DNA of 64,000 nucleotides from Kribbella sp. NBC_01245 (lineage in GTDB: Bacteria > Actinomycetota > Actinomycetes > Propionibacteriales > Kribbellaceae). The notes beneath the pieces are model-generated. The model was given only the letters and a program-made list of their open reading frames with translations. It was not told where the DNA came from and searched no databases. The stretch covers positions 6,572,001 to 6,636,000 of the forward strand of contig NZ_CP108487.1 in NCBI RefSeq assembly GCF_036226525.1. The letters run 5' to 3'. Made by a program: the position numbers and the translations under genes. Below, one piece after another: positions 1 to 49,663 of this stretch (positions within the stretch are counted from its first letter, which is position 1; every line of letters begins with the position of its first letter).

Positions 1-268
1 GCACCTGCCGCGCAGCAGGCCGAATCGCCGCGTCGACCCGCCCCAGCAGCGCCCGATACGCCGGAACACTCAACGGTTTAGGCGCCTCAACCGTCGTACT
101 GACCGACGGCGTCGCGGCCGGCGCCGTACTCGGGGCACTGGCGGTCGGCGTGGCACCAGGTGCGGATGGCTCGGGCTGACTCCGTGGCTCATCGGAACCA
201 CTGCAGGCGGACAAGGAGAAGACGACCAGAACGGCGATCCAGGGCAGTGGGCGGATGAGCAGGGGCAT
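1..268 (-). CDS. Partial lipoprotein, N-terminal part
   Basis: Leftward gene whose 3' end lies outside the window. The first 22 residues form a lipoprotein signal peptide: Arg6, a hydrophobic core, then the lipobox Leu-Ser-Ala-Cys with Cys22 as the lipidated residue. A low-complexity Ser/Thr/Pro/Ala linker follows (about residues 24-60), then the start of a folded part. The mature protein should be anchored on the outer face of the membrane. No function can be assigned from this fragment. It is divergent from the small membrane protein gene at 472. Confidence 0.75.
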   Translation of the reverse strand, partial: MPLLIRPLPWIAVLVVFSLSACSGSDEPRSQPEPSAPGATPTASAPSTAPAATPSVSTTVEAPKPLSVPAYRALLGRVDAAIRPAARQV

Positions 269-471
269 GTGCCACCTCAATCCATCAGGCTCGGTCAAAC
301 CTCTTATAAACAAGCCTAATCGCCAGCACCGACACTTTCCGGATCTGTCGTGTTGCTGCCATCAAACGCTCGCTTCCCCCGAGTCGCTGTTCGAGCTGTC
401 GCCGACGTCGGCGTGCCCGGGCGACCGCCTGATACAGTCCCGCTCACCCCTCGAACGCAAGGAATCGACTG

Positions 472-15322: not shown

Positions 15323-15574
15323 TCAGTGTTCCGGGCAGCCGGCCACGATGTCGTTGCCGTCCGGCGCGATCGGATCGCAGGTCGTCTGCTTGGCGTGGCC
15401 GGGCAGGACGCCGGCGGCGATGCCGATGGCCAGCGTTCCGGCGGCGAAGCCGGCCAGGGCGCGGGCACGACGGCCCCGGCGCTCCGCGCGACCCACGGTG
15501 ATCGCACCGATCGGGCTCACCTCAGCGTCGGTGGCCGCACACTCGGACTCAGCGGCCTGGTACTTCTCGGTCAT
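15323..15574 (-). CDS. Small Cys-containing protein coupled to LanM; candidate atypical precursor
   Basis: An 83-residue protein. Its ATG overlaps the lanM stop (ATGA), and AGGGGAGA lies upstream within lanM, so it is translationally coupled. It has an acidic N-terminus with one Cys, an Arg-rich stretch (about residues 29-39), a hydrophobic Ala/Gly/Ile segment (about 40-60), then a hydrophilic tail with Thr-Thr-Cys and a final Gly-Cys-Pro-Glu-His. The tail has two Thr and two Cys, enough for lanthionine rings, but the leader lacks the usual acidic helix and Gly-Gly cleavage site. It may instead be a single-pass membrane accessory or immunity protein. No closer family recognised. Confidence 0.6.
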   Translation of the reverse strand: MTEKYQAAESECAATDAEVSPIGAITVGRAERRGRRARALAGFAAGTLAIGIAAGVLPGHAKQTTCDPIAPDGNDIVAGCPEH

Positions 15575-18495
15575 GGTGTCTCCCCTTTGACATTCTTTGT
15601 TCGCACGGGCCTCTGGGCGGTGACCGTGACGTTTGGTGGGTGCATCAGCAGCGCCGACGGGACCTCGGGGAACCCAAGCCTGAGCAGGCCGTACCCGATC
15701 CCGGCCAGGCCGGTGAGCAGACCGGGTGAGGGCACGCCATCCGGCGTACCGCACCGCGGTCCGTGCAGGTCGATGGCGCCGAGCACCTGACCGGCGGCCC
15801 GGGCCCGCAGCGCCTCCGCGCTCGGATCGCCCTGGGCGGCCAGCTCGATCAGTGGTTCGAGGGCGCCGAGTTCGCCGTGGCACAGGCTCATCTCCCGCAG
15901 CGCGGGCCGAGCCGCCGTGTCCAGCAAGTACGACGTGATGGGTCCGCGCCATCCCGCGGCCATCGCGGCCACGGTGATACCGGCACGACCCGAGCACCAG
16001 CCGAGATCTGCGTCGGGCAGACCCTCGGACGGCAACGGCTCGAGATGTACGCCGGCCTTCCGCAGCACGGCCAGACCGGCCTCGCGATGCTTTTCCGCGG
16101 GCGAGCGCAGCAGCGCCCAGCCGATCCCCGTCGAACCGCGGGCGAACCCGGTGCCGGGCAGTTCCGCAGTCAGCAGCTTGTCGGCATACCTGCGAGCGAG
16201 CTCGGCCGCCAGTGGGTGATCGATCGCCAGCATCGCCGCGAGACCACCCGCTTCACCCTCGAAGTACGACGGCTCGGCATCCGGGTCGTCGTCGGGCATT
16301 GCCGCGGCGATCGCGAGGGCCTGGTCGAGCCAGCCAGCGAGTTCGGTGTTGTCCGGGTCGAGCGCGATACCGCGGGCGAGCATGTACGCGATCCCGCCCA
16401 GCCCAACGTATCCAGGCCCGATCGCCGCCGCGAGATCGGCGTCCGCGGCCATCGCGTCGAGCAGTCGCGGCAGCGGCCGGAGAGCGTCCCGCGCGAGTTC
16501 GACGTACCGCTCGGCGCCGGTCATCGAGGCGAGTCGGGTGAGGAACAACGCCGTGCCGGTGTAGCCGCTCGGCAGGCCCGCGCCCATCGGCAGCAGGGCC
16601 CAGTCCAGGTCGTCGACGAGTTCCAGGCCGAGCCAGTTCGCGCGGCCGTGCCGGCTGATCGAACGCGCCAGGATCTCGTCGGCGATACCGGTCGCGGCCA
16701 TCAGCAGGCGTTCCGGATCCGGCGGTACGGCGACCGCAGGCATCCGGCGCCCGGCCAGTCCCCGGTGCTCGACCGGTGCCGAACGCGTCGCCAGCGTGGC
16801 GCCGATGATCCACTCCTGCGCGTGCCGGTCGACCTCGCCGAGGCGGGCGATCTTGGCTCGCGCCGAGGCGAGTCCGGTCGTACCGAGTAGTCCCGGCAGG
16901 CAGCCGCCGGCCGCGGTCCAGATCGCGCGCGACCCGGGCTTGGTGGTGAACAGCGGGATGTCGCCGGCCCACAGGTCGGCCAGCTCTGCCGGGACCAGTT
17001 GCCGCCGGACGTCATCCTCAGCCTGGTCGTACAGCAGGCTGAAGAGGTTGTCCCGGGCGTCCGCGTCGCGTAGAGCGTCTGGGTGAGTCGACTCGTCCAG
17101 CAACGTCGCGTACATCGAAGTGGCCTGGGCGACCAGCCGTACCTCGTCGTCGGCGCAAGCCTCGAGAAGAGGGCCGGCAAGTTCGTCGCGGTGTCGTGCG
17201 ATCGCGTTGTAGGCAGTGGCGAACCCAGCGAGCAAGGCGCTCTGGTGCTGCCTCGGCTCGCTCGCGTGGCCGGAGAGCATCGGACGGTTGCTTGCGGCTT
17301 TGGTGATGCCAGGGCGACGTACGAGGCGCATTGTGTCTAGGCCGGCGTCTAGCCAGGTCACGACTGTTGTAGGCAGTACTGCATCGTCATCGCCGCCTAG
17401 GCCGGACATGTCGGCAGAACCCTGGTCGCCGAGCATCAGTAGCGGCAGTAGCGCGGTCTGGTAGACGGAGCTGGTCAGAGCCTCCGTAGCCGGGTCCGGC
17501 CCGATCAGAGATGGCACGTTCAGCACTGGGTGGAAGAGCGTCTCCACGTCCACAATCACCGGATGCTCGCCTGCTGCGATCAGGTTCTCGTAGTGCATGT
17601 CCGTGCCGTCTAGTACGTACAGGAGCGCGAGTAGAGCGCCTTGGCGGTAGTAGAAGCGGCGGACCGAAGAGACGTCCGTACAGGCTGTGTGTTCGACGAA
17701 CTCGAGCCAGCCGTAGCCCTGGCGCGGCAAGAGCCGCACAATACGCAGATCCAGGTGCGCGCGGTCGTTGAGCCAGTCGACGATCGCGTTGAAGTGCCCG
17801 TGCAGGTCAAGCGGCCTGGGCCGGTAGACGAGCTTGGCGCCGGTCTCGAACGTCAGGATCGCAACAGCCCGGCCGCCGCGGTGGGTATCGCCAGTGACGG
17901 CTGCAGAGACTAGAAGGCCCGGGTCGTTCGCTAGGAAGTCGACCAGGTCGGCACGGTCGGCTGCGAGCCGGTCCAGCAGTTCGAGGTGCGCACTGACCGC
18001 CGTACGGCACGTCTGGCCCAGCACCCGGGCGAGAACGGGGTAGCGGCGTAGGAGCGGTACAAGACCGCCTTCGCTCAGCTGCCGCGTGAAGTACTCGAAA
18101 CGGTCCGCGGAGGTTGTGCCCACCAGCTGCTGGTTCTTCCGGGCACGGTTCAGTTCCAGCACCAGTGTCCGCGCTGCCAGCCGCACGAGTCGTCGTCCGA
18201 GGTGTGCCACGAATTCGGCGGTGACGGCCGCGTTGTCGACGCCGTCGTACTGCCGGCGCAGGTCCGCGCGTACGCCGTCCAGTAGGGGTTGAAGCGCGTC
18301 CGCGAGGCCTTCGCCGGTAGAGGTGCTGTAGGCGGGCAGGCGGTCTACGTACAGCGCCCAGCCCGGGGCCAGCGCGTCGTACTCACGCGGCGCCAGCCCG
18401 GCCTGCCACCACGGTGGCGGCGTCCGGGCGATCAATGGCGGCGCTGAGAACTGGAACACCTGCACACGATGACATCGGCTGACCGGTCGGTACAT
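15571..18495 (-). CDS. lanM: Class II lanthipeptide synthetase LanM
   Basis: A 974-residue bifunctional synthetase. The N-terminal DUF4135 dehydratase domain contains Gly-Thr-Asp-Met-His-Tyr-Glu-Asn and Asp-Val-Glu-Thr-Leu-Phe-His; it phosphorylates and eliminates Ser/Thr. The C-terminal LanC-like cyclase has zinc ligands Cys834 (Trp-Cys-Ser-Gly-Arg-Ala-Gly) and Cys872-His873 (Leu-Cys-His-Gly-Glu), so both activities look intact. No ribosome site is evident before ATG 18495; GTG 18465 is an alternative start. Divergent from the lanA-lanKC operon across a 200-bp control region. No canonical class II precursor is seen nearby; the coupled downstream small gene is the only candidate. Confidence 0.93.
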   Translation of the reverse strand: MYRPVSRCHRVQVFQFSAPPLIARTPPPWWQAGLAPREYDALAPGWALYVDRLPAYSTSTGEGLADALQPLLDGVRADLRRQYDGVDNAAVTAEFVAHLGRRLVRLAARTLVLELNRARKNQQLVGTTSADRFEYFTRQLSEGGLVPLLRRYPVLARVLGQTCRTAVSAHLELLDRLAADRADLVDFLANDPGLLVSAAVTGDTHRGGRAVAILTFETGAKLVYRPRPLDLHGHFNAIVDWLNDRAHLDLRIVRLLPRQGYGWLEFVEHTACTDVSSVRRFYYRQGALLALLYVLDGTDMHYENLIAAGEHPVIVDVETLFHPVLNVPSLIGPDPATEALTSSVYQTALLPLLMLGDQGSADMSGLGGDDDAVLPTTVVTWLDAGLDTMRLVRRPGITKAASNRPMLSGHASEPRQHQSALLAGFATAYNAIARHRDELAGPLLEACADDEVRLVAQATSMYATLLDESTHPDALRDADARDNLFSLLYDQAEDDVRRQLVPAELADLWAGDIPLFTTKPGSRAIWTAAGGCLPGLLGTTGLASARAKIARLGEVDRHAQEWIIGATLATRSAPVEHRGLAGRRMPAVAVPPDPERLLMAATGIADEILARSISRHGRANWLGLELVDDLDWALLPMGAGLPSGYTGTALFLTRLASMTGAERYVELARDALRPLPRLLDAMAADADLAAAIGPGYVGLGGIAYMLARGIALDPDNTELAGWLDQALAIAAAMPDDDPDAEPSYFEGEAGGLAAMLAIDHPLAAELARRYADKLLTAELPGTGFARGSTGIGWALLRSPAEKHREAGLAVLRKAGVHLEPLPSEGLPDADLGWCSGRAGITVAAMAAGWRGPITSYLLDTAARPALREMSLCHGELGALEPLIELAAQGDPSAEALRARAAGQVLGAIDLHGPRCGTPDGVPSPGLLTGLAGIGYGLLRLGFPEVPSALLMHPPNVTVTAQRPVRTKNVKGETP

Positions 18496-18582: not shown

Positions 18583-18694
18583 TGTGGCGCCGGCCCGATC
18601 GGAGTTGACTTCAGGTCATCGGGAGACGCCGCACCGGCCCTTCCGCCCCAAGGACCGGACACCTCGTCCGGCTCCCAACACCTGAGGAGAAATC

Positions 18695-18793
18695 ATGGCT
18701 GAGCTTCTTGACCTGCAGATCCTGACCGACGAGGTCGCCGTGGACGTCGAGGTCATCCACACCGACGGCAGCGGCGTCAGCTACAACTGCTGA
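18695..18793 (+). CDS. lanA: Class III lanthipeptide precursor, avionin-type
   Basis: A 32-residue peptide, GAGGAG before its ATG. The N-terminal Leu-Leu-Asp-Leu-Gln (residues 4-8) is the recognition helix typical of class III leaders, followed by an acidic stretch (Thr-Asp-Glu-Val-Ala-Val-Asp-Val-Glu). The C-terminal half reads Ile-His-Thr-Asp-Gly-Ser-Gly-Val-Ser-Tyr-Asn-Cys: Ser26-x2-Ser29-x2-Cys32 is a labionin-forming pattern, and Cys32 is the last residue, as required for oxidative decarboxylation by the LanD-like protein two genes down. The peptide is unusually short. His22 and Asp24 are candidate targets for the JmjC oxygenase. It lies directly ahead of lanKC, separated by a hairpin. 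Confidence 0.88.
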   Translation: MAELLDLQILTDEVAVDVEVIHTDGSGVSYNC

Positions 18794-18805
18794 TTTTCGC
18801 CCTTA

Positions 18806-18837
18806 CCAGGGCCCGGGGCCCCCAACCCGGGCCCTGG
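18806..18837 (+). terminator. Attenuator hairpin after lanA
   Basis: CCAGGGCCCGGG (18806-18817) pairs perfectly with CCCGGGCCCTGG (18826-18837) over an 8-base loop, 13 bases after the precursor stop and 51 before the synthetase start. No T-run. Partial termination here would give more precursor than enzyme transcript. Confidence 0.65.
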
Positions 18838-18888
18838 CGCTGTTCTGCCCCTCGCTGTCTTGAGGGCCGGCGCCAGGAAGAGGAAGAG

Positions 18889-21435
18889 ATGATCGACTCG
18901 TTCAGGGCCTACACGGTCAGCGACCCGCAGTACTACGACCGCGTCGAGCGGTCCTCCGAACCCGGCGAGTTCCTCGAGCTGTTGCGCGACCGGTTGACCG
19001 GCCGGGCCGACACGATCGACGGCGGTGGCGTCTGGGCGCGATGCCTGGACCGGCCGCTGGCCGACCTGCCCGAGTACGGGTGGAAGCTGCACATCTCCGC
19101 ACGTCCGGACGACCTACGGGAGATCGTCGCGGCCGTGATCGACGAGTACGAGGTCGAGGCCTTCAGCTTCAAGTGCGTCCGCTCGCCCGAGCTCGGCCTG
19201 GCCCAGCTCAGCCGGTGGTGGGCGCGCGGCGGTGCGGGTAAGGCCGTCACCGTCTACCCCCTGTCAGAGGCCCACGCGCGGGAACTGGCCGACCGGCTGT
19301 CCGCGCGGTTGCAGGGCTTCCAGGGCTCACATGTTCTGACCGACCGCCGTTACCCGGGCAGCGACGTGGTGCAGTACCGCTACGGCACCTTCCGCAAACC
19401 GCCGGGTATCGACGACGAGGGCCGGCCCAGCAGCGTGGTCAACGGCCCGGACGGCAAACCGTGGAACGACTCGCGCACACCGAGTTTCACCTTGCCCCAT
19501 TGGGTTTCCGTTGATCCCTTCGATGACGGCTCGGGCGCTGGGGAAGACCCGACTGGCCTGCTCAAGCGGTACCGAGTGACGTCCGTGCTGAGGCACTCGA
19601 CCGCGGGCGGCGTCTACCTCGCGAAGGGTGAGGACGGCGCCGAGTACATCCTCAAGGAGGCGCGGCCGCATACGGCCTTCGCCCCGGACGGCTCGGACGC
19701 GCCGACCCGGTTGCAGCGCGAGTACGACTACCTCAAGCAGCTCGAAGGCACCGGCGTAGCCCCGCGCGCGATCGAGATCGCCAAGGTCTGGGAACACACC
19801 TTCCTGGTACAGAGCAAGGTCCCGGGAATCACCTTCCAGGTCTGGCTTTCCCGCAATCACCCGTTCGCCACCGGCGTCCCGGACGAGACCTATCCGGCCC
19901 GCGCGCAGGCGATCCTCGCGCAGGTCCGCCAGGCGCTGACGACTTGCCTCGACCAGGGCGTGGTCTACAGCGACACCTCGTTGACGAACATCCTGATCGA
20001 CGACACCGACACCGTGCACCTGGTCGACTTCGAGGCCTGCCGCCCGGCCGGATCGGACCCCGCGTCGTACCCCCGGACCAGCGGGTTCGCTCCCGAGCCC
20101 GGCACCGAGGCGTGGACTACGGATGCGGCGTACGTCGCCTATGCGGCCGACGCGGTCGAGGCCGCCACCGTGATGCCGCGCAACGCCTTGCTGGCCTTCC
20201 GTCCCGAGGTGTTCGGCCGCGCCCTGGACACTACCGCCCGCCAACTCGGTACGCCGCTCGGCGATCTGCCCCGACGTCTCGGCCTGCCAAGAGGCGTGAC
20301 GAGTGATGCCGAGCTGCTGGCTGATATCGCCCGCGGACTGCGCAACGCCGCGACGCCCGATCGCGACGACCGGCTCTTCCCAGGGCATCCCGAGCAGTTC
20401 CGGTCGAACGCGCTCTCCATCGCGTACGGCGCGGCCGGCGTACTGCGGGTGCTCAAGACCCTCGACGGCTGGGTGGATCCCGAGCTCACGCGCTGGCTGA
20501 TCGCCCGCCTCGACGAGGATCGTCCGCTGCCGATGGGCCTGTACGTCGGACGCGCGGGTATTGCCACCACCCTGCTCGAACTCGGTCTCGAGGACCGCGG
20601 CCTGCTCGCCTCGGCAACCGCGGACGCACTCGGCTCGGCGGCCAAGCCCGCGGGCGTCGCGACCGGCCTGGCCGGCGTCGGTTTGTCCCTGCTCAGCGCA
20701 CACCGTATGACGGGGGAGCAGGGCCACCTCGACCACGCCCGCGCCATCGCCGATGGCTTGATCGACCGGGCCTCCGACGATGGCACGGGCCTCTGGTGGC
20801 CGGTTGACCGCCATCCGCTCGGGTTCCTCTACGGCTCGTCCGGCGTGGCCGTCTTCCTCACCGAACTCGGGACGCTCCTCGGCGACAACGTGCTGGTGAA
20901 GCTCGGCCGTCGCGCGCTGGCGTTCGACCTGTCCCGTGGACGGGTTCGCGCGAACGGCGGCACTGGCTTCGGTGCTTACGCGGAGGGCGTCGCCTTCGAG
21001 CCGTACCTGATCCGCGGTGGTTCCGGCGTCGGTATGGCCGTCGCGCATCACCTACGGCTGACGGGTGACGAGAGCTTGGTCAAGCCGTTGCAGTCGATCG
21101 TGCGGGGTGTCGCGATGCCGTTCACGGTCAATCCCGGTTTGTTCTCGGGGATGAGCGGGTTGATCGAGTTCCTGCTCGACAGCCAGGCCGTGCTGCCGGA
21201 CTCGGACGGGTTCCTCGATCTGGCCGTGAACCGCTTGTTCGAACAGGTCCTCGCGCTGCGCTGTGTGGACGAGTCCGGGACCGGATTCCCCGGCGACGGG
21301 CTGATGCGGAAGAGCTGCGACGTCGCCTCCGGCAGTGCCGGTGTCGCGATGATGCTGCACCGCCTGCAGCATGGCGGCGAGACGCTCGACGTCCGCTACG
21401 GGCGGCCGATGGGGGTGTTGAGTCATGCCGGCTGA
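18889..21435 (+). CDS. lanKC: Class III lanthipeptide synthetase LanKC (island 1)
   Basis: An 848-residue three-domain enzyme: N-terminal phosphoSer/Thr lyase (about 1-200), Ser/Thr-type kinase (about 220-400) and C-terminal LanC-like cyclase (about 480-840). Kinase residues visible: Lys256 in Ile-Leu-Lys-Glu-Ala-Arg, catalytic Asp362 in Tyr-Ser-Asp-Thr-Ser-Leu-Thr-Asn, and Asp380 of an Asp-Phe-Glu motif replacing Asp-Phe-Gly. The cyclase lacks the Cys-Cys-His zinc site, which separates class III from class IV. It should phosphorylate and dehydrate Ser26/Ser29 and cyclise onto Cys32. Its last 11 bases overlap the flavoprotein gene. Confidence 0.92.
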   Translation: MIDSFRAYTVSDPQYYDRVERSSEPGEFLELLRDRLTGRADTIDGGGVWARCLDRPLADLPEYGWKLHISARPDDLREIVAAVIDEYEVEAFSFKCVRSPELGLAQLSRWWARGGAGKAVTVYPLSEAHARELADRLSARLQGFQGSHVLTDRRYPGSDVVQYRYGTFRKPPGIDDEGRPSSVVNGPDGKPWNDSRTPSFTLPHWVSVDPFDDGSGAGEDPTGLLKRYRVTSVLRHSTAGGVYLAKGEDGAEYILKEARPHTAFAPDGSDAPTRLQREYDYLKQLEGTGVAPRAIEIAKVWEHTFLVQSKVPGITFQVWLSRNHPFATGVPDETYPARAQAILAQVRQALTTCLDQGVVYSDTSLTNILIDDTDTVHLVDFEACRPAGSDPASYPRTSGFAPEPGTEAWTTDAAYVAYAADAVEAATVMPRNALLAFRPEVFGRALDTTARQLGTPLGDLPRRLGLPRGVTSDAELLADIARGLRNAATPDRDDRLFPGHPEQFRSNALSIAYGAAGVLRVLKTLDGWVDPELTRWLIARLDEDRPLPMGLYVGRAGIATTLLELGLEDRGLLASATADALGSAAKPAGVATGLAGVGLSLLSAHRMTGEQGHLDHARAIADGLIDRASDDGTGLWWPVDRHPLGFLYGSSGVAVFLTELGTLLGDNVLVKLGRRALAFDLSRGRVRANGGTGFGAYAEGVAFEPYLIRGGSGVGMAVAHHLRLTGDESLVKPLQSIVRGVAMPFTVNPGLFSGMSGLIEFLLDSQAVLPDSDGFLDLAVNRLFEQVLALRCVDESGTGFPGDGLMRKSCDVASGSAGVAMMLHRLQHGGETLDVRYGRPMGVLSHAG

Positions 21436-21976
21436 TCGCCTCGCGGTGGTCTGCACCGGCGCGAGTGCCGCGCTGGACCTGCCGTCCCACCTCGCGCACT
21501 GGCGCAAGGAGGTGAGCGGGCCGATGTCGGTGATGCTGACGCACTCGGCCCTCACTTTCGTCCAGCCGTCCGCGGTCGGCCTGATCGCCGACGAGGTCTT
21601 CGAGCCGGGTGGACCGGTCGTCAACCCGGTCGCTTTCGCCAACCAGGCAAGGCTTTTCGTGGTCGCACCCTGTACGGCGAACTTCCTCGTCTCGGCCGCC
21701 CTCGGTCTCGCCTCGTCACCCGCCTTGACCGCGATGCTGGCCACGCCCGCGCCGCGGATCGTCTTCCCGCACATGAACCCGCGGATGTGGCAGGCGCCGA
21801 CCACGCAGCAGGCCGTCCGGTCGTTGCGTGAGCAGGACGTCATCGTGGTTTCGCCCGAGGACACCACCGTACTGACCTTGTGGAGTGGCGAGTTCGAGCC
21901 CAGCAAGGCGATGCCCGCTCCCGCGCGAACGGCGACGGTCATCTCGGCGCATTGGCGAAACCTGGTCGCGGCATGA
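21425..21976 (+). CDS. lanD: Flavoprotein cysteine decarboxylase homologue (LanD/HFCD family)
   Basis: A 183-residue homo-oligomeric flavoprotein of the EpiD/MrsD/Dfp family. Visible are the FMN-site Val-Ala-Pro-Cys-Thr-Ala-Asn (EpiD has Pro-Ala-Ser-Ala-Asn-Thr) and the substrate-clamp motif Pro-His-Met-Asn-Pro-Arg-Met-Trp (Pro-x-Met-Asn-x-x-Met-Trp). It should oxidatively decarboxylate the precursor's C-terminal Cys to an enethiol, the donor for aminovinylcysteine or avionin. By eye, the position of the family's catalytic His is Asn67 (Val-Asn-Pro-Val-Ala), which is odd. Overlaps lanKC by 11 bases and the MFS gene by 4. Confidence 0.85.
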   Translation: MPADRLAVVCTGASAALDLPSHLAHWRKEVSGPMSVMLTHSALTFVQPSAVGLIADEVFEPGGPVVNPVAFANQARLFVVAPCTANFLVSAALGLASSPALTAMLATPAPRIVFPHMNPRMWQAPTTQQAVRSLREQDVIVVSPEDTTVLTLWSGEFEPSKAMPAPARTATVISAHWRNLVAA

Positions 21977-23238
21977 CCGGACGCGCGGCGTTGTTGAGGG
22001 ATAACCGGGACTTCAGCCGGTTTTGGTGGGGTCAGGCGCTCACGGCGCTCGGTGCCCGGGTGAGCGATATCTGCCTGCCCTTGCTGGTGCTGGACATCAC
22101 CGGTTCTCCTTTGTGGGCAGGGGCGCTCGCCACCGCGCGCCTCGTCGCCCTGAACGTCGCGCGCCTACCTGCCGGAGCGCTGGCCGATCGCTGGGACCGC
22201 CGGACCGTGATGATTCGGGTCGACCTGACCAAGGCTGTGCTCTGGGGGATGCTAGCGCTTTTGGTTGCCTTCGGCACCGGGTCGGTTTGGCCGTTGGTCG
22301 TCATCGGTGTGCTCGACGGGTTGGTGAGTTCGGTCTACAACCCATCCCTGGCGGCGGCACTTAGGCACTTGATCCGGCCGGACGAAATCACGAAAGCCGT
22401 TTCCTTGAACGAATCCCGGTCTTACGCTGCCAGTTTGATCGGACCGGCCGCTGGTGGAGGGCTTTACGCGTTGGCGCATTGGATTCCGTTTGCGGTCAAT
22501 GCCGTCACGTTTCTTCTTTGTGCCGTGCTGGTTGCACGGATCACGGCTGGGCTGGGCGGCAGTAACGCTTCTGTAGAACGTCTTTCCGCCGATGTTGCTC
22601 ATGGTATTCGCTATGTCTTCAACCAGCCTTTCCTTCGTACGTTGACGATTTGGTCAGCCGTGCTGAACTTTGCGACGGCTGCTGCGTTCTTCGGGATGGT
22701 GCCGATGTTGTCCGGGCTGGATACGCCAGCACCGGTGATCGGCGCCATGTCCGGTGTCGTCGCGGCCGGCGCCTTGCTGGGTTCACTGGTTGCGCCTCGC
22801 ATAGTTGCCGCAGGCCCCTACCGTGCAGTCGTTGCCGGTGGACTGGTCGTGGCCGGTGTGACCCTGGCGGTAGCGGCAGTGCCTGTGTTGCCGGTGGTCG
22901 TCGCCGCGCTTGCGTTGCTCGGTGCGACCGCGCCGGTGCTGATCATCGCGATGACCGCCGAGGTGTACAAGGTGGTCGACGACTCGATGATGGCGCGGGC
23001 GCAGAGCACGATGACGCTCGTCGGCTCGCTGTTCTACCCCGTGAGCTTCCTGGCGATGGGCTGGCTGTTGCAGCGGTTCGGCCCGGGTCCGTCGTACGGC
23101 GTATTGGCCGGCGCGCTCGCCGCCTGCGTCCTGTTCACCCTGGCCCGGCCGGTCCGGGCTCAGCTCTCACCCGAGCCCGCCAGCTCGGGCATCAGGTCAA
23201 ACTCGGAACTCGGGTCAAAGGAGTTGCATCATGCGTAG
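21973..23238 (+). CDS. MFS transporter, probable lanthipeptide exporter
   Basis: A 421-residue major facilitator with about 12 membrane helices. The loop 2-3 motif Leu-Ala-Asp-Arg-Trp-Asp-Arg-Arg is the MFS motif A variant of the MFS_3/enterobactin-exporter-like (EntS) group. The start ATG overlaps the stop of the flavoprotein gene (ATGA), and the end overlaps the JmjC gene by 8 bases, so it is translationally coupled in the lanthipeptide operon. It is the likely exporter or immunity pump for the modified peptide; no ABC exporter is present in this operon. Confidence 0.88.
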   Translation: MTGRAALLRDNRDFSRFWWGQALTALGARVSDICLPLLVLDITGSPLWAGALATARLVALNVARLPAGALADRWDRRTVMIRVDLTKAVLWGMLALLVAFGTGSVWPLVVIGVLDGLVSSVYNPSLAAALRHLIRPDEITKAVSLNESRSYAASLIGPAAGGGLYALAHWIPFAVNAVTFLLCAVLVARITAGLGGSNASVERLSADVAHGIRYVFNQPFLRTLTIWSAVLNFATAAAFFGMVPMLSGLDTPAPVIGAMSGVVAAGALLGSLVAPRIVAAGPYRAVVAGGLVVAGVTLAVAAVPVLPVVVAALALLGATAPVLIIAMTAEVYKVVDDSMMARAQSTMTLVGSLFYPVSFLAMGWLLQRFGPGPSYGVLAGALAACVLFTLARPVRAQLSPEPASSGIRSNSELGSKELHHA

Positions 23239-24427
23239 TGAGGCCTTGTCCAGCTTGATTCCCGACCCGTCGGCCTTTCTCGCTCAGCCGCCGGCCGAGG
23301 CCACGGTATGGCGTCAGGCCGCGTCGTTGGCGTTCGGTCTGGCCGAGGCGGGGGAGTTGCTCGACCACGGTTCCCTGCAGCGGCAGATGGTCAGCCTGGT
23401 GAAGGACGCCAAACGCGTCGCCCCGACGTCGTACACCTGGGCAGGTCAGCCGATCCAGCCCGGCTTCTCCGACGTCGCCCGGTCCACCAAGATCTCGGCG
23501 TACATCGCTGAAGGTGCCACCACCGTCCTGGAGTCTCTGCACCGGACGTGGAAGCCCATTGGCGACCTGTGCCGCCGACTGAGCTTCGAGACGGGCCTGC
23601 CGATCAGTGCCAACGCATACCTCACGCCGTCCGGAAGTCAGGGTTTTGCCCACCACTACGACACGCACTCCGTGCTGATCGTCCAGACGGCCGGTAGTAA
23701 GACCTGGCAACTGCACACGCCGGTGTACGACGATCCGCTGGAGCACCAGCCGTGGAACGCCGCGAAGGTCTCGCAGGACGAGTGGGAGCGCCTTCGCAAC
23801 GCAACGCCGTTCCTGGAGGTGACGTTGAAGCCTGGCGACAGCCTTTGGATTCCGCGGGGCTGGATCCACAACGGCTTCGCCACCGACGACCACTCGCTGC
23901 ACGTGAGCTTCTCCTTTCCGACGCTCACGCCGTACTGGATCGCCAACGAGCTCGTACGGCGTCTGGGCTCGGAGCGCGCGTTCCGTACCGAACTGCCCTG
24001 GGGATTCGGCCAGTCGGCGGAAGTCCGTGCCGAGGCGCTCGAGACGACGGCGAAGCTCCTGGCCGAGCACTTCGTCGCCTTCGACCCGGTCGTGGGGGAG
24101 GAGTTGGCGGACGACTATCGCCGGTTCTCGCTGGAGTCGGCTCGTCGTCCGATGGACAACTTCCTGCCTGCTCCGACCGCGAGTACGCCGGTCCGCACGG
24201 TCGCCGAGTCGGCCGTTGGGACCAGCTGGACCGACGAGGGCTCGCTGCGGGTTCATCTCGGCGACAGCGTGGTGCTCTTCGAGGCCGACGTGGCCCCGGC
24301 GGTTGCCGCGCTGATCGAAGCCGACTCGCCGTCGCCGTGGACCGCGGCCGATCTGGGCCTGCCGTCCGGCGCCGCCCTCGAGCTGGTGACCACGTTGCTG
24401 CGCACTGGAATGGCGGTGCGCGTCTGA
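23231..24427 (+). CDS. JmjC/cupin-4 Fe(II)/2-oxoglutarate oxygenase
   Basis: A 398-residue member of the ribosomal-oxygenase-like JmjC/cupin_4 family. The iron triad is visible: His142-Tyr-Asp144 in His-His-Tyr-Asp-Thr-His, and the distal His213 in Pro-Arg-Gly-Trp-Ile-His. The Thr-Trp-Gln-Leu-His segment after the first site and a C-terminal dimerisation/winged-helix-like part (about 270-398) fit YcfD/MINA-type enzymes, which hydroxylate Arg or His side chains. As the last, overlapping gene of the lanthipeptide operon it probably hydroxylates the precursor (His22 or Asp24 are candidates). Substrate is inference. Confidence 0.88.
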   Translation: MRSEALSSLIPDPSAFLAQPPAEATVWRQAASLAFGLAEAGELLDHGSLQRQMVSLVKDAKRVAPTSYTWAGQPIQPGFSDVARSTKISAYIAEGATTVLESLHRTWKPIGDLCRRLSFETGLPISANAYLTPSGSQGFAHHYDTHSVLIVQTAGSKTWQLHTPVYDDPLEHQPWNAAKVSQDEWERLRNATPFLEVTLKPGDSLWIPRGWIHNGFATDDHSLHVSFSFPTLTPYWIANELVRRLGSERAFRTELPWGFGQSAEVRAEALETTAKLLAEHFVAFDPVVGEELADDYRRFSLESARRPMDNFLPAPTASTPVRTVAESAVGTSWTDEGSLRVHLGDSVVLFEADVAPAVAALIEADSPSPWTAADLGLPSGAALELVTTLLRTGMAVRV

Positions 24428-31605: not shown

Positions 31606-32160
31606 CTATGCCCAGGGGCGGGTTTGCCAGTCGGGGGCGAGGAGGGACCAGACTTCGAGGTCTTGGCGGATGGGGCCCACCGGGAACGCCGCGCGGAGGA
31701 CGCCTTCGTGGGTCAGGCCTAGGCGGCGGGCGACGGCCTTGCTCGGTTCGTTGTCGGTCGAGCACTTCCACTCGAGGCGGTAGATGCCGCGTTCGCCGAT
31801 CGCCCAGTCGATCAGGACCTGGCAGGCGCGGGTGATCAGCCCCTTGCCCTGGGCATCGGCGTTGAGCCAGACACCAATCTCACACGTGCCGAAGCGCAGG
31901 TCGAAGGTCCGGAACAGCACACCCCCGACGAGTTCGCCGCCCAGCCAGATCCCGTCGATGCGCCCGGTATCGGCCGCCTGCCGATCGGCGTACGCCTGCA
32001 AGAACGAGCGAGCCGACGACTCGTCCACGACGACCGCCGCCCACGGGATGTACTGGACGATATCCGCCCGGGCCTTCTCCACATGGGCGAGGAACTCGGC
32101 GGCATGCCTCGGCTCGAGCGGGCATAGCTCGGCGTCGGCGGTGAGCTGAACGGCGTACAT
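31606..32160 (-). CDS. GNAT N-acetyltransferase, RimL-like
   Basis: A 184-residue acetyltransferase. The acetyl-CoA loop is Asn-Ala-Asp-Ala-Gln-Gly-Lys-Gly-Leu-Ile-Thr (about 108-118; consensus Gln/Arg-x-x-Gly-x-Gly/Ala), and the closing Arg-Leu-Gly-Leu-Thr-His-Glu-Gly segment is typical of RimJ/RimL ribosomal-protein acetyltransferases. Target unknown. ATG 32160 has GGAGG upstream; an in-frame ATG at 32190 is less likely. Confidence 0.87.
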   Translation of the reverse strand: MYAVQLTADAELCPLEPRHAAEFLAHVEKARADIVQYIPWAAVVVDESSARSFLQAYADRQAADTGRIDGIWLGGELVGGVLFRTFDLRFGTCEIGVWLNADAQGKGLITRACQVLIDWAIGERGIYRLEWKCSTDNEPSKAVARRLGLTHEGVLRAAFPVGPIRQDLEVWSLLAPDWQTRPWA

Positions 32161-32238
32161 GCGACCTCCGGTAGCGCGGGCGGACACCAACAGCGAACAC
32201 CCGCGCGAACCAGAGGCCCGATGGATTGCCGAGATCTG

Positions 32239-44195: not shown

Positions 44196-45847
44196 TCGCC
44201 CTGCTGCCAGTGGCCGACCAGCTCGCGGTAGAGCGGCGACTCGGCCAGCAGGCTCGTGTGGGTCCCTACAGTCGGGTGCCGCCCGTCGAGCACGAGGACC
44301 CGGCGGGCGCGGAGGGCCGAGCTGACCCGGTGGGCGATGACGATCAGGCCGCCCGACCGTGCGGCGAAGGATTCCTCGGCCCGGCGTTCGGCCTCGGGAT
44401 CGAGATGGCAGGTGGCCTCGTCCAGGATGACCAGCGGCGCCGGCGACAGGTAGGCCCGGGTGAGGGCGATGAGTTGGCGCTCGGCAGGGGACAGCTGCCC
44501 GGGACGGACACACGCGTCGAGACCGCCCAGGCGTCGTACCAGGGCGGTGGCGCCGACGGCCTCGATCGCGGCGTCTACGTCGGCCGGTGTGGCGGTGGGG
44601 CGTAGGTAGACCAGGTTGTCCCGGACGGTGGCCGAGAAGACGTAGGCCTCCTGTGGGATCAGCACGCGGGTCTCGGGCGCAGCCTGTACGGCGGGTACGC
44701 CGCCGACGTGGATCCGCCCGCTGGTCGGCGGCATCAGCCCGCAGATCAGCGCCGCGAGGGTCGACTTGCCGATGCCGCTCGGACCCACGACCGCAAGATG
44801 CTCGTTCTCGGCGATGTCCAGGTCGAGGCGTTCCAGCACTGGCTCGGCGTCCGGTCCGTAGGCGAAGGACACGTTCCTGATCCGGACCTGATGTCCGCGG
44901 GTCGCGGTCTGGGGTGGCGAGGTCTGGGTGGGGCTGGTGTCGAGGATGCGGCCGAGCGTCACGACGTACCGCAGGCCGCTGTCGCCGAGCGCCGCCATGA
45001 TCGTGCCGAGGGCCGGCTGCAACCCGAGCAGGACGTACGTCAGCCCGCCGAGCAGGGTGCCCGTGCTGACGCCTCGGCCGGCCAGCCAGGGTGCGGCCGC
45101 GAGCAGGATGAGTAATGGCAGCCAGCCGCCGACGGCGAAGCAGAGCGTCCGCAGGGCCGCGACCTTGGCGAGCGCCCGTTCGGCCGCCGCATGCGCCTCG
45201 ATCGGTACGCCGACGAGACCCGCGGCGTACTCCTCGGCGCCCGCGGCCGTCACATCGCGAATCCCCGCGAAGGCCATTCCGGCGGTGACAGCCAGGTCCT
45301 CATCGGCACGGATCGACGCTCTGACCCGGCCCGCGGCAAGCCCGAGCACGGCCAGCGACAGCGCGAAGCCCAGCAAGAACGGGGGAATCACGAGGGCCGC
45401 GATGATCGGTTTGAGCGAGAGCAGGCCGACGACGACGCCGATCACGGTGACCAGGAAGTTCCGGACGACCAGGATCAGCCCGGCGTACGTGTCCCGGACG
45501 ATCTCCACCTGCCGGTTCAGCCTGGCCACCGCGCCGTCGTCCCGTGTCCGGCTCAGCGCGCCTTCGACCACCCGGCCGACCAGGGTGTCGCGGAACGGTT
45601 CGACCAGGTCGCCAAGCCGTCGGTAGACCCGGCCGGCGCCGATCGCCCCTACGCACGCCGCCACGACCAGACTGCCCAGCCACGCGAGGCCCCTCGCCGT
45701 ACGGCCGTCCAGGAACGCGTCAGTCGCATGGGCAACGGCCAATCCGTAGCACAGCGTCGGCAGGATTTCCGGCACGGACCAGGCGGCCAGTACGACGGTC
45801 GGCCGCCGCCGCATCGCGTGAAGTCCGAAGGCCAATTCCCGGTTCAC
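44174..45847 (-). CDS. ABC half-transporter (RamB-like)
   Basis: A 557-residue fusion of a six-helix membrane domain and an ATPase. Walker A is Gly-Pro-Ser-Gly-Ile-Gly-Lys-Ser-Thr, the Q-loop Ile-Pro-Gln-Glu-Ala-Tyr, Walker B Leu-Val-Ile-Leu-Asp-Glu-Ala-Thr; the signature motif is degenerate (Leu-Ser-Pro-Ala-Glu instead of Leu-Ser-Gly-Gly-Gln). GTG start overlapping the stop of the partner gene (GTGA). With that partner it forms a heterodimeric exporter for the SapB-type peptide. Last gene of the operon. Confidence 0.87.
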   Translation of the reverse strand: MNRELAFGLHAMRRRPTVVLAAWSVPEILPTLCYGLAVAHATDAFLDGRTARGLAWLGSLVVAACVGAIGAGRVYRRLGDLVEPFRDTLVGRVVEGALSRTRDDGAVARLNRQVEIVRDTYAGLILVVRNFLVTVIGVVVGLLSLKPIIAALVIPPFLLGFALSLAVLGLAAGRVRASIRADEDLAVTAGMAFAGIRDVTAAGAEEYAAGLVGVPIEAHAAAERALAKVAALRTLCFAVGGWLPLLILLAAAPWLAGRGVSTGTLLGGLTYVLLGLQPALGTIMAALGDSGLRYVVTLGRILDTSPTQTSPPQTATRGHQVRIRNVSFAYGPDAEPVLERLDLDIAENEHLAVVGPSGIGKSTLAALICGLMPPTSGRIHVGGVPAVQAAPETRVLIPQEAYVFSATVRDNLVYLRPTATPADVDAAIEAVGATALVRRLGGLDACVRPGQLSPAERQLIALTRAYLSPAPLVILDEATCHLDPEAERRAEESFAARSGGLIVIAHRVSSALRARRVLVLDGRHPTVGTHTSLLAESPLYRELVGHWQQGDQIQPAS

Positions 45848-47448
45848 TGGAAGGCCTTCCGGTATGCCGGGTCCTGCAATAACTGCTCGTGCGGGGCGAA
45901 CCCGCGGACCTGGCCGCGCTGCAACCAGATCACCAGGTCTGCTCGCGCGGCCGTGGCGGCCCGATGCGTCACGATCAGTTTGGTACGGCGTAAGGGGTCG
46001 TTCGCCAGGGTCTGGCTGATCTGGAGTTCGGTAGCGGTGTCGAGGCTCGAGGTGGCGTCGTCGAGGACCAGCAGACGACGGGCGTGCCATGCTCTGGCGA
46101 GTCCCAATCGTTGCCGTTCGCCCCCTGACATAGGTGCTTCGAGCAACGGAGTCTGATAGCCCTGCGGTAACCGGCTGACGAAGTCGTGTGCGCGGGTCGC
46201 CCGGGCCGAGGCCAACGTCCGCAGCGGATTGACCGCGCCTCCGGAAATCGCCTCGCCCACCGTCGCGCCGACCAGCGTTGGCCGCTCGAACGCGCAACCC
46301 ACGGCGGAGCTCAGCGCCTGGGAACTCAAGGCCTGCAAGGGAATTCCGTCCAGCAGCACCAGTCCGTCCGACGGATCACGAAGGCGTGCGGCCAGCTCGG
46401 CCAGCACCGATTTGCCCGCGCCGCCTGGTCCGACGACGGCCACGGTCGATCCGCCCGGCACCTCCAAGTCGATTCGCAGTCCGTCCGCGGTCACCTCATC
46501 GAAGGTCAGCCGGCCGGGGCCGGGTGGTAGCGAAAGGGTGCCATGGGCAATGGGTTCGATGTCCAGGCTGATTCGCTGCAGGCCGGCGCGGGATCGGGCC
46601 AATTCGCCCAGGACACCGGTGAGGCTGCCGAGGCCCGCGCCGAGTACGGCGTACTGGGCGGCGGCAAAGAGATCGCCCGCGGTGATGCGGTGGTTCGCGA
46701 GCTCGATACCGGCGACGGCCAGAACGGAGATGAGGACGAGTGGTCCGGCAACGGCGGCCTGAGCACCGGATCGCGCGAGCACTCGCCAGGTTTCCAGGCC
46801 GTGCCGGTGGAGTTCGGGTAGCAGTGCGAGGATGCGGCGTTTCTCGACCGAGGTGGTCCGCGCAGCGGTGATCGTCCGGATGCCTGCCAGGGATTCCGTC
46901 AGGAGGGCCGCGATCCGGCCCTGGGTTTCTGCGTACGCGAGGCTGACCTCGGCGGTTCGCCGGGCGAAGAGCCAGAGCACACCGATGACGAGCAGGACGC
47001 CTAGGAAGAAGGCAACCGCGAGCCACGGGTCGATCCGTATCAGCAGGACGAGACTCCCCGCAGGCGGGATGATCGCGGCGAAAGCGGTGACCCGGGCGAT
47101 ACCGGCCTGAGCTGCGTCGACCGCGCTACCCGAGACGCGGCTGACCAGGTCGCCGGTATCGCATTCGCGGACGCCGGCGGGACCGCCCGCCAGGACGCGA
47201 CGTACCAGTTGGTGGCGTAGCCCAGCCGTCGTACCGGCTTCGTAGGCCGTGCCCGCGAAGGAGTCCACGAGGCTGCAGGTGATACCGAGGACGACCAGCC
47301 CGGTGGCGATCGCCAACCAGCCTTGGACGTTGCCATTGGCAACGATTGTGTCGATCGTCCGGCCCAGTACCGATGGCAGCGCGAGTGCCACACCGCTGCC
47401 CAGCAAGGCGGTGAGGCCGATCACGGGCAACCAGCCGCGGCCGCGCAT
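45844..47448 (-). CDS. ABC half-transporter (RamA-like)
   Basis: A 534-residue membrane-ATPase fusion: helices over residues 1-300, Walker A Gly-Pro-Gly-Gly-Ala-Gly-Lys-Ser, a canonical Met-Ser-Gly-Gly-Glu-Arg-Gln signature, and Walker B Leu-Leu-Val-Leu-Asp-Asp in which the catalytic Glu is Asp. This complements the partner's degenerate signature, as usual in asymmetric heterodimers with one competent ATP site. ATG overlaps the peptidase stop (TGATG). I chose 47448 because the membrane domain starts there; the longer in-frame version lies antisense within the peptidase gene. Confidence 0.87.
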   Translation of the reverse strand: MRGRGWLPVIGLTALLGSGVALALPSVLGRTIDTIVANGNVQGWLAIATGLVVLGITCSLVDSFAGTAYEAGTTAGLRHQLVRRVLAGGPAGVRECDTGDLVSRVSGSAVDAAQAGIARVTAFAAIIPPAGSLVLLIRIDPWLAVAFFLGVLLVIGVLWLFARRTAEVSLAYAETQGRIAALLTESLAGIRTITAARTTSVEKRRILALLPELHRHGLETWRVLARSGAQAAVAGPLVLISVLAVAGIELANHRITAGDLFAAAQYAVLGAGLGSLTGVLGELARSRAGLQRISLDIEPIAHGTLSLPPGPGRLTFDEVTADGLRIDLEVPGGSTVAVVGPGGAGKSVLAELAARLRDPSDGLVLLDGIPLQALSSQALSSAVGCAFERPTLVGATVGEAISGGAVNPLRTLASARATRAHDFVSRLPQGYQTPLLEAPMSGGERQRLGLARAWHARRLLVLDDATSSLDTATELQISQTLANDPLRRTKLIVTHRAATAARADLVIWLQRGQVRGFAPHEQLLQDPAYRKAFQ

Positions 47449-49394
47449 CAGGTCAGCCCGGTGTTGGCGCCGAGGAAGGCGAGCATGTCCGCGGCCAGAC
47501 CGACGCCACGGCTGACCGTGCCGTTGCCGTGGCCGACGCCGCTCTCGGCCCGGAGCAGAATGGGCCGCGATCCGCCGGTCGCGTGCTGGAGCGCGGCGCA
47601 CATCTTGCGGGCGTGCCACGGATCGACCCGGGTATCGCCGTCGAACACGGTGAACAGCGTGGCCGGATAGTCGGTGCCCTCGGTCACCCGGTGGTACGGC
47701 GAATAGGCCAGGAGGTGGGCGATCTGCGCGGGGTCTTCGGCCGACCCGTATTCGGGCACCCAGGATGGCCCGAGGCCCGAACGTTCGTAGCGGATCATGT
47801 CGAGCACCGGCGCCGAGCAAACCGCAGCCGCGAAGAGGTCCGGCCGCTGCGTGATCGCCGCGCCGACCAATAGGCCGCCGTTCGACTCGCCGCACAACCC
47901 GAGCTGCCGCGAAGTCGTCCACCCCTCGGCGATCAGGGTCTCGGCCGCGGCGAGGTAGTCGTCGATGACGTTCTGCTTGCGGTCAAGAACTCCAGCTCGA
48001 TGCCACTCGGCACCTTCCTCGCCACCGCCGCGCAGGTTGGCCGTCGCGAACACCCCACCGGCCTCGACCCACGCCATCGTGAATGCGGAATAGGTGGGGG
48101 TGAGCGACAGCCCGAAACCGCCGTACCCATAGAGGATCGCCGGTCGCGGGTCGGCGCCGGGTTTGGCCAGCACCACCATCCGGACCGTCGTACCGTCCTT
48201 GGAGGTGAACGAGATCTGGTGCGACTGGATCCCCTCGACCGGGCTCGGCGTCCCGTCCCACAACTCGACTGCGCCCGAGCGTGCGTCGTACCGGTAGACG
48301 GCCCCGGGCGTGACGCTGTCCGTGTAGCCGAACCAGGCCTCCGAACCCCCCGTCGGCCGACTGGTGAGCCCACCGACCGAGCCGAGGCCGGGCAGCGGTA
48401 CGTCGCCAAGGCGCGCGCCCGTCTTCCGATCGTGACAGCCGATCTCGCTCAGCGCGTGCCTACTCCGGCCGACCAGCAACAAGTCATCCAGCACGGCGAT
48501 CTCGGTCAGCGGTGCACCCGGAACCTCGGAGACCAGCTCCTGCCAGTGCTCCAGCTCGGGATGGAACGGATCGCCCACGCAGATCCGCCCGCTCGGCGCC
48601 TTGTGCGTGGTCGCGACGTACAGCCGCCCATCCGGTCCCACCGTCATCGCGGTTTGTGCGTCGACGCCATCTTGGACGACGCGGAGGTCGTGACCCGGCT
48701 CGGCCAGATCGACCAGCCAGAGGTCATTGCGCGAACCCTCCGCGGCCGAGATCGTCAGCCAGCGGCCGTCCGTACTGAGCTCCAGCCCGTACGACGCCGG
48801 CGCCGCTCGCACCACGAGGTCATCGCGACTACCGAGGTGGTGCCGCAGGACCTGGCGATTGCGAACGAAGTAGAACGCACGGCAGTCGGGCAACCAGGCG
48901 ACTGGGGAGTACCGGCAACCATCGATCGGATCATCGGCCGGATCGCCGGTCTCGACATCGAGGATGTGCAAGGTGGATTGCTCGGTACCACCTCTCGAGA
49001 TCTGGTAGGCGAGCAGGCGGCCGTTCGGGGACGGCTCCCAGTGGTCGAGAGTGGTCTGGCCGGTCGGATCCAGGTGCGTCGGATCGACCAGGGCCTGCTC
49101 GACGCCCGCGCGGACGACGTACAGGACAGGGTGGTCCTGCCCGGCGCGGCGGCGCAGGAAGAAGTGCCGATCACCACGCCAGACGGGCGGCGAGACCATG
49201 CCGGTCCGGGTTCGGGCGGCGACCTTGGTGCGGAAGGCGTAGCGCCCGGGCAGCGTCGCGGCGTACGTCAGCCATCGCTCGTCCTGCGCGGCCCGCCAGG
49301 CCACGGTATCGGGATCAGCGGTGTCCTCTAGCCATCGATACGGGTCCGCGACGACATGGCCGTGCAGCACCTCGACGATGTCTGAACGCCTCAC
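47448..49394 (-). CDS. Prolyl oligopeptidase, probable lanthipeptide leader peptidase
   Basis: A 648-residue S9A peptidase: N-terminal lid, seven-bladed propeller (about 70-390) and C-terminal hydrolase domain. The triad is Ser504 (Gly-Glu-Ser-Asn-Gly-Gly), Asp587 (Gly-Asp-Thr-Arg-Val-Asp) and His622 (Gly-Val-Gly-His-Gly). No signal peptide, so cytoplasmic. Prolyl oligopeptidases of the FlaP/AplP type cut class III leaders after Pro, and the precursor here has Pro12 at the leader/core border region. GTG 49394 has GGAGGAGG 8 bases upstream. Coupled to the ABC genes downstream. Confidence 0.9.
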   Translation of the reverse strand: MRRSDIVEVLHGHVVADPYRWLEDTADPDTVAWRAAQDERWLTYAATLPGRYAFRTKVAARTRTGMVSPPVWRGDRHFFLRRRAGQDHPVLYVVRAGVEQALVDPTHLDPTGQTTLDHWEPSPNGRLLAYQISRGGTEQSTLHILDVETGDPADDPIDGCRYSPVAWLPDCRAFYFVRNRQVLRHHLGSRDDLVVRAAPASYGLELSTDGRWLTISAAEGSRNDLWLVDLAEPGHDLRVVQDGVDAQTAMTVGPDGRLYVATTHKAPSGRICVGDPFHPELEHWQELVSEVPGAPLTEIAVLDDLLLVGRSRHALSEIGCHDRKTGARLGDVPLPGLGSVGGLTSRPTGGSEAWFGYTDSVTPGAVYRYDARSGAVELWDGTPSPVEGIQSHQISFTSKDGTTVRMVVLAKPGADPRPAILYGYGGFGLSLTPTYSAFTMAWVEAGGVFATANLRGGGEEGAEWHRAGVLDRKQNVIDDYLAAAETLIAEGWTTSRQLGLCGESNGGLLVGAAITQRPDLFAAAVCSAPVLDMIRYERSGLGPSWVPEYGSAEDPAQIAHLLAYSPYHRVTEGTDYPATLFTVFDGDTRVDPWHARKMCAALQHATGGSRPILLRAESGVGHGNGTVSRGVGLAADMLAFLGANTGLT

Positions 49395-49450
49395 CAACTC
49401 GCCTCCTCCCGGTCTCGTTGGCAACTCTCCATGGCTTGGCGACGCCGAGT

Positions 49451-49486
49451 GGTCCTGGGCGGGAATGAGGTGTCCCGCCCAGGACC
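49451..49486 (-). terminator. Attenuator hairpin after lanA (island 2)
   Basis: GGTCCTGGGCGGGA (49451-49464) pairs perfectly with 49473-49486 (14-bp stem, 8-base loop) in the 109-bp gap between precursor and peptidase genes. Probably limits read-through into the peptidase and transporter genes. Confidence 0.72.
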
Positions 49487-49503
49487 TCACTGGATCCGAT
49501 GGA

Positions 49504-49641: not shown

Positions 49642-49663
49642 CGTGTACACCTCCTCTCGGGCT

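Follow-up and report, generated by a model that had tools for sequence, protein, structure and literature searches.

A conserved five-gene class III lanthipeptide operon of Kribbella with avionin-type gene content and a JmjC oxygenase gene

Within a 64-kb stretch of the Kribbella sp. NBC_01245 genome (8.68 Mb, a single contig), hereafter the window, five forward-strand genes at 18695-24427 encode, in this order, a 32-amino-acid precursor peptide, a lanthionine synthetase (LanKC), a flavoprotein (LanD), a major facilitator superfamily (MFS) exporter, and a JmjC oxygenase, over a span of ~5.7 kb. Our analyses confirm that this operon is real and lies where an initial annotation, made from the sequence, had placed it. 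It is best read as a new variant of the avionin-type class III lanthipeptide operon, one that includes a JmjC gene. To the fuller proposal, that the product is a very small, exported class III lanthipeptide of the avionin type, tailored by the JmjC enzyme most probably at Asp24 of the precursor, we give an even chance.

The five-gene unit recurs in four species

When one genome per species was scanned across 84,980 species with the JmjC protein (by exact seeds, so that distant copies could be missed, and with the window's own record possibly left out), three relatives were confirmed: Kribbella sandramycini (77% identity), K. antibiotica (75%), and Micromonospora rosaria (50%). All three carry precursor-LanKC-LanD-MFS-JmjC in identical order. 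Since all five genes recur together in three other species, for a total of four species in two families, the operon is not a product of chance. A search of 147 relatives with the same protein gave some match in 78; high identity (76% or more) was confined to this genome and two others, and the remaining matches covering at least 200 residues were at most 40% identical. The JmjC protein of genome G1030 (locus L098; E = 1.7e-78) was considered as a sign of another operon and rejected, its 11.6-kb contig showing gatB/gatA-like open reading frames (ORFs) and no LanKC when the ORFs were read rather than searched by family.

Seeded with LanD instead, a search of 38 Kribbella genomes recovered the operon-type protein in three (E ~1e-110), all with JmjC, and a second, distant LanD in this genome. 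The initial annotation had raised the prospect that JmjC might be missing from homologous operons; it was present in all four, and no JmjC-less operon emerged from the 38 genomes. Twelve of 350 Micromonosporaceae genomes, drawn from a larger group, matched LanD, with LanKC alongside in 20-kb stretches only in M. rosaria; the 11 other loci showed no LanKC in the stretches examined, some of them short contigs. The stretches examined around LanD relatives in two further genera (3 of 148 and 9 of 195 genomes), on a Rhodococcus plasmid, and at the second locus of this genome likewise held no LanKC, and one LanD-relative locus (L091) gave a single LanC-like match of ~100 residues. A phylum-wide LanD search matched 373 of 396 genomes, many of the matches apparently being CoaBC by open-frame length; at 29 other loci from this search (L039-L067), which are short stretches of 2.0 to 3.5 kb each, tblastn found no LanKC or JmjC. 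Overall, no LanKC-LanD pair without JmjC was found among the LanD-seeded loci examined, a set in which no known lipolanthine producer was sampled by name.

The genes that flank the unit differ between loci. Here, the unit is preceded by LanM and LuxR-type regulator genes and has an aldehyde dehydrogenase gene on its downstream side; the K. sandramycini unit comes after aminotransferase and aldehyde dehydrogenase genes and is followed by DUF1844, infC, and rplT. The K. antibiotica flanks resemble those of K. sandramycini in ORF layout, judged without Pfam scanning. Given these differences, the five-gene unit probably moves as a cassette. Across the three Kribbella copies, nonsynonymous divergence (dN, 0.03 to 0.19) was well below synonymous divergence (dS, 0.64 to 1.31) in the four larger genes. 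In the precursor (32 codons), dN (0.12 to 0.30) was not below dS (0.12 to 0.26), a comparison that is uninformative because the gene is too short and its differences are leader driven.

The initial annotation had described five tightly overlapping genes. All five are present and three junctions do overlap (LanKC/LanD by 11 bp, LanD/MFS by 4 bp, and MFS/JmjC by 8 bp), but the precursor gene is separated from that of LanKC by a 95-bp gap. In all four loci this gap holds a G+C-rich hairpin, clear by z score in two (-2.9 here and -3.7, each with 0 of 200 shuffles equally good) and weak in two (-1.6 and -1.9, with 12 and 9 of 200 shuffles equally good), only part of the gap having been folded in the other three loci. 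Such hairpins may set the dose of precursor over enzymes.

A class III synthetase and a precursor with avionin spacing

LanKC, which comprises RamC_N (lyase), kinase, and LanC-like domains, scored 675 bits against NF038151 (cut-off, 575) and 405 bits against the class IV model (cut-off, 650). Its orthologues in the other three operons are 74, 75, and 54% identical, whereas the three closest LanKCs outside the operons, from 325 class-wide genomes drawn, are generic proteins of ~32% identity with no LanD in the stretches examined. The precursor leader carries the motif LDLQ, and LDLQ or LELQ is present in all four precursors; the available text of PMC7268733 names this LxLQ motif. With a LanKC above cut-off and an LxLQ leader, the operon is a class III lanthipeptide operon.

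The four precursors share a leader consensus of M-x-E-[LV]-L-[DE]-L-Q and an end consensus of T-D-G-S-G-[VI]-S-[YF]-[NT]-C (...HTDGSGVSYNC here), with M1, E3, L5, L7, Q8, T23, D24, G25, S26, G27, S29, and C32 invariant. Variation sits in the leader and the end is fixed; residue 30 is Tyr or Phe, residue 31 is Asn or Thr, and His22 is present in three of the four but lost in M. rosaria. Orthologues with a conserved core in three species rule out a chance ORF. Translation bore out the annotated 32-residue peptide ending in Ser-x2-Ser-x2-Cys, and the spacing and terminal Cys are kept in all four precursors. The avionin of nocaviogua, a lipolanthine, has the same spacing, at residues 2, 5, and 8, in the available text of PMC10435860. 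The argument of the initial annotation, that LanKC together with a cysteine decarboxylase follows the logic of avionin biosynthesis, agrees with these data: a class III LanKC and a LanD stand together beside an S-x2-S-x2-C precursor, which points to avionin-type gene content.

LanD belongs to the EpiD/MrsD type but has Pro at the position of the active-site His

Among solved structures, MrsD and EpiD were the best matches to LanD both by sequence and by fold (mean predicted local distance difference test [pLDDT] of the model, 83). The PxMNxxMW motif reads PHMNPRMW here and PHTDPVMW, with Asn replaced by Asp, in M. rosaria. In all four operon LanDs, Pro (within Asn-Pro-Val; Pro68 here) stands in place of EpiD His67. 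H67N blocks EpiD, and a complex of the H67N protein with substrate is among the solved structures. We aligned EpiD and MrsD with the LanD of the window and with those of 27 of 28 loci (L127, which had no LanD by tblastn, and L039-L067 lie outside this set, which holds no proven avionin LanD such as MicD and its kin): the His67 column has Pro in 22 of the 28 LanD-like proteins, His in 5, and Gln in 1. Pro in this column marks a subfamily and is no proof of inactivity.

These data bear on whether LanD acts on Cys32. The initial annotation had predicted a loss of 46 Da by oxidative decarboxylation; the assignment to the EpiD/MrsD type with PF02441 agrees with it, but the step is less certain than proposed because the EpiD-type active-site His is absent. 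LanD might then leave Cys32 intact or carry out other chemistry, and the product, with or without hydroxylation, would contain labionin or lanthionine. We consider this improbable, even with the Pro in the His67 column and the Asn-to-Asp change of M. rosaria: the prevalence of the Pro is in keeping with a functional subfamily, no protein of the unit is more conserved than LanD (91 and 90% identity to the two Kribbella orthologues), and all four precursors end in Cys.

Several relatives of LanD lie in other settings. Elsewhere in this genome (L094, 8461000-8480900), a LanD that keeps the EpiD-type His lies near a radical SAM gene, an MFS-like gene, and a 60-amino-acid peptide ending in NTNNLC, with no LanKC or LanM match in 20 kb; this is possibly a further cysteine-decarboxylating system for a ribosomally synthesized and post-translationally modified peptide (RiPP). 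In three genomes of one genus (L117-L119) and on the Rhodococcus plasmid (L095), an MFS gene and a small cupin-like ORF accompany a Pro-type LanD, the ORF being annotated only in the plasmid; no LanKC was found in the stretches examined. OlsB/OlsA-like (ornithine-lipid) acyltransferases, below model cut-offs, lie upstream in L117, and similar-looking ORFs are present in L118 and L119. In L083, L088, and L120, Pro-type LanD relatives form a recurring pair with a protein whose N terminus resembles EFHPLTYV..DGITVGR.D..SFALLPEDG.

The JmjC protein is a candidate precursor oxygenase

The JmjC protein matches PF08007 (E = 4e-25), and the HxD...H iron triad that the initial annotation had called intact (His142, Asp144, and His213) is invariant in all four orthologues. 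By sequence, its nearest solved relatives are NO66 and MINA53, followed by YxbC; by fold, they are NO66, MINA53, and YcfD. The alignment of the model (mean pLDDT, 64) to NO66 spans 1..398 with a VIA Z score of ~22 and a root mean square deviation (rmsd) of ~15, presumably owing to a different arrangement of the domains; the catalytic part of YcfD aligns with a Z score of ~19 and an rmsd of ~3. NO66, MINA53, and YcfD thus have the JmjC_2 domain, the HxD...H triad, and the overall fold in common with this protein, but they are enzymes of ribosomal proteins by title, whereas the gene described here belongs to a peptide operon and stands apart from its Kribbella paralogues.

The latter point was drawn from a tree of 32 proteins (four operon copies, 26 Kribbella paralogues, one protein from another family of the order, and that of G1030), which has long branches, is midpoint rooted, and does not include the second JmjCs of this genome, K. 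sandramycini, and K. antibiotica. In it, the four operon JmjCs form one clade with 100/100 support on a long branch, so that a stray copy of a Kribbella paralogue was rejected as the source of the operon gene. The second JmjC gene of this genome, which lies elsewhere, is 39% identical, and the other Kribbella genomes searched have related ones, in one case seen as a match of only 45 residues.

The likeness to NO66, MINA53, and YcfD in both sequence and fold raises the alternative that the JmjC enzyme is a hydroxylase that protects the producer by modifying a ribosomal protein or another target of the peptide; the winged-helix-like segment predicted at its C terminus and the adjacency of the K. 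sandramycini operon to infC and rplT are in keeping with such a role. However, JmjC genes also occur outside the operon in this and other Kribbella genomes, the operon JmjCs occupy their own branch, and the gene overlaps its upstream neighbor among biosynthetic genes, and we judge self-protection to be as improbable as a LanD that spares Cys32. In the last 80 residues of the model, predicted strands give way to helices in the manner of a winged helix. The available text of PMC12710340 describes fusions of PF08007 with domains like RiPP recognition elements in fish and algae and bacterial homologs in RiPP-like surroundings, which fits a leader-binding role for this C-terminal end. The segment perhaps holds the leader, which we offer as a lead only.

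The initial annotation had named His22 and Asp24 as plausible hydroxylation targets. Both lie in the core, but only Asp24 is invariant. Since His22 is lost in M. rosaria, it was set aside as the likely main target and Asp24 is the better candidate. Two points favor Asp24-Gly25: it is invariant, and DurX, the Asp hydroxylase of duramycin biosynthesis, requires a Gly adjoining its target Asp (PMC10373908, in the text available). The JmjC enzyme might instead act on the peptide at another position (Thr23, aromatic residue 30, one of the ring residues, or, in Kribbella alone, His22) or otherwise, by oxidative cross-linking or desaturation. Thr23 is just as invariant as Asp24, and His22 is kept in three of four precursors while the titles of NO66 and MINA53, the closest solved structures, describe His hydroxylases; yet M. 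rosaria retains the JmjC triad without His22, and residues 30 and 31 vary. We regard action elsewhere or otherwise as unlikely, though worth serious consideration. Noursin-type (histidinobutyrine) LanKC(Hbt) systems are likewise class III and also have His and Thr in the core; noursin links Thr-derived residue 8 to His11 (PMC10206099, in the text available). In contrast, His22 precedes Thr23 here and M. rosaria has no His22, and a noursin-like His-Thr cross-link was rejected for its wrong order and spacing.

The operon differs from lipolanthine and other characterized systems

The lipolanthines (microvionin, nocavionin/nocaviogua, and goadvionin) resemble this operon in their LanKC and LanD, very short core, and S-x2-S-x2-C spacing, the last as given for nocaviogua in the available text of PMC10435860. 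The Kribbella operons differ in that MFS and JmjC genes lie inside the unit and in that, among the ORFs scanned beside it, no polyketide synthase (PKS), fatty acid synthase (FAS), or acyltransferase gene for a lipid tail was found. The initial annotation had likewise reported no such gene; none was present among the selected ORFs scanned beside the operons of the window and K. sandramycini (K. antibiotica was not scanned). Because of this lack beside the Kribbella operons, we did not file the operon as a lipolanthine, and by the gene content seen it does not appear to be one.

That the product is nonetheless a true lipolanthine, its fatty or polyketide chain being supplied by enzymes encoded elsewhere, seems very unlikely. 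The LanKC-LanD pair and the avionin spacing would suit this proposal, as would a PlsC-type acyltransferase gene that in M. rosaria follows the JmjC gene after 133 bp (L037:9331-10080). However, the best model for that gene is 1-acylglycerol-3-phosphate acyltransferase, below its cut-off, and the intervening gap is strongly folded (z = -4.5), which makes it possible but unlikely that the gene is part of the unit; we rejected it as such. The GNAT-family gene of the window (31606-32190) is 7 kb distant and on the opposite strand; RimL is its best match, also below cut-off.

In its RamC_N-kinase-LanC-like synthetase and LxLQ leader, the operon also resembles the SapB/labyrinthopeptin-type class III systems, which are not known to have LanD or JmjC. 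CinX and DurX, the Asp hydroxylases of cinnamycin and duramycin, belong to a different family of Fe(II)/2-oxoglutarate enzymes from JmjC. Their products offer a precedent for hydroxylated Asp adjoining Gly in a lanthipeptide but, unlike here, are class II LanM peptides. A precedent for the proposed JmjC chemistry is that of BipG and BpmG, JmjC enzymes that hydroxylate ornithine in biphenomycin RiPP precursors (PMC12707348 and PMC12257519, in the text available), although biphenomycin is not a lanthipeptide and the target is ornithine. The JmjC enzyme itself is therefore not new to RiPPs, and the statement of the initial annotation that a JmjC peptide hydroxylase falls outside known systems needs narrowing to class III: among the matches listed from the open-licence literature, as far as their available text goes, no report joins JmjC to a class III operon, though a paper may exist elsewhere. 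The available text of PMC7268733 mentions PF03171 oxygenases for lanthipeptide clusters in general, and that of PMC9962454 names class II and III lanthipeptide clusters of Kribbella and no JmjC.

Features of the operon and other lanthipeptide loci in the window

The features of the operon are collected in Table 1. Because sigma-70 consensus scoring found no site at the upstream stretch conserved with the other Kribbella operons, it is listed as a candidate promoter.

Table 1. Positions of the operon features in the window
Feature	Position	Strand	Basis
Candidate promoter, TTGACTTC...ATCGGGA, upstream of precursor	18605..18624	+	Common to two other Kribbella operons (upstream-region alignment)
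Precursor peptide, 32 aa	18695..18793	+	Translation; orthologues in three species
G+C-rich hairpin, 12 pairs, between precursor and LanKC	18806..18837	+	Folding (z = -2.9)
LanKC, class III lanthionine synthetase, 848 aa	18889..21435	+	NF038151; PF25816, PF00069, PF05147; orthologues
LanD, HFCD-type flavoprotein, probable C-terminal cysteine decarboxylase	21425..21976	+	PF02441; MrsD/EpiD sequence and fold matches; alignment
MFS exporter	21973..23238	+	PF07690, PF05977; orthologues in all three other loci; start chosen from the ATGA overlap (family scan used 21967-23238)
JmjC (PF08007) Fe(II)/2-oxoglutarate oxygenase, C-terminal winged-helix-like segment	23231..24427	+	PF08007, triad, fold, own clade

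Two further lanthipeptide loci lie in the window, both on the reverse strand. A class II LanM (15571-18495; 678 bits) is divergent to the operon, ~200 bp from the precursor gene; tblastn found no LanM in the other three operon loci. At 45844-52177, a second LanKC-like protein (49664-52177) is closely followed by a likely SapB-like precursor that starts MALLDLQGLEAPSG, and a prolyl-oligopeptidase-type S9 protease (47448-49490) and an ATP-binding cassette transporter are also present. The locus resembles ordinary class III clusters, here with a protease of its own.

Proposed pathway and significance

In the pathway that we infer from gene content and order, conservation, motifs, family membership, and fold, LanKC would bind the LDLQ leader and phosphorylate and eliminate Ser26 and Ser29, LanD would oxidatively decarboxylate the C-terminal Cys32 to an enethiol, and LanKC would close the three residues into an avionin. 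The JmjC enzyme would serve as a dedicated oxygenase of the precursor, most probably placing a hydroxyl on the invariant Asp24 that precedes the invariant Gly. A host protease would cut the leader, and the MFS protein would export the product. The untagged 32-residue precursor has a calculated mass of 3447.642 in linear form; the corresponding values would be 3411.621 once two waters are lost, 3365.616 with decarboxylation added, and 3381.611 with one oxygen placed as well. In a more specific form, which we regard as possible rather than probable, a ribosomal-oxygenase-like JmjC, perhaps with a winged-helix-like end that holds the leader, would have been recruited into a class III operon, where it beta-hydroxylates Asp24 in a minimal avionin peptide, alongside a cysteine decarboxylase that lacks the canonical catalytic His.

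Several points weigh against this pathway. Given the Pro in the His67 column and the PHTDPVMW motif of M. rosaria, decarboxylation would not be assured. The solved structures closest to the JmjC protein take their names from ribosomal proteins rather than RiPPs, and the model of this protein is of moderate quality, with residues 231-312 below a pLDDT of 50, and weaker than that of LanD. The conserved T-D-G could instead serve LanKC recognition or target binding, and three of the four operons came to light in a search seeded with JmjC. The interpretation offered in the initial annotation is, in sum, partly supported.

In its more specific form, if true, the pathway would be without an earlier example of a lanthipeptide tailored by JmjC or of a hydroxylated avionin, as far as the open-licence literature shows. 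The lanthipeptide toolbox would gain an oxygenase family new to it. A natural LanD without the EpiD-type His would make the mechanism of cysteine decarboxylation testable, and the system is small enough, at five genes, that it could be rebuilt in E. coli. An avionin peptide of ~10 residues without a lipid tail would, finally, let the role of the ring alone be asked.

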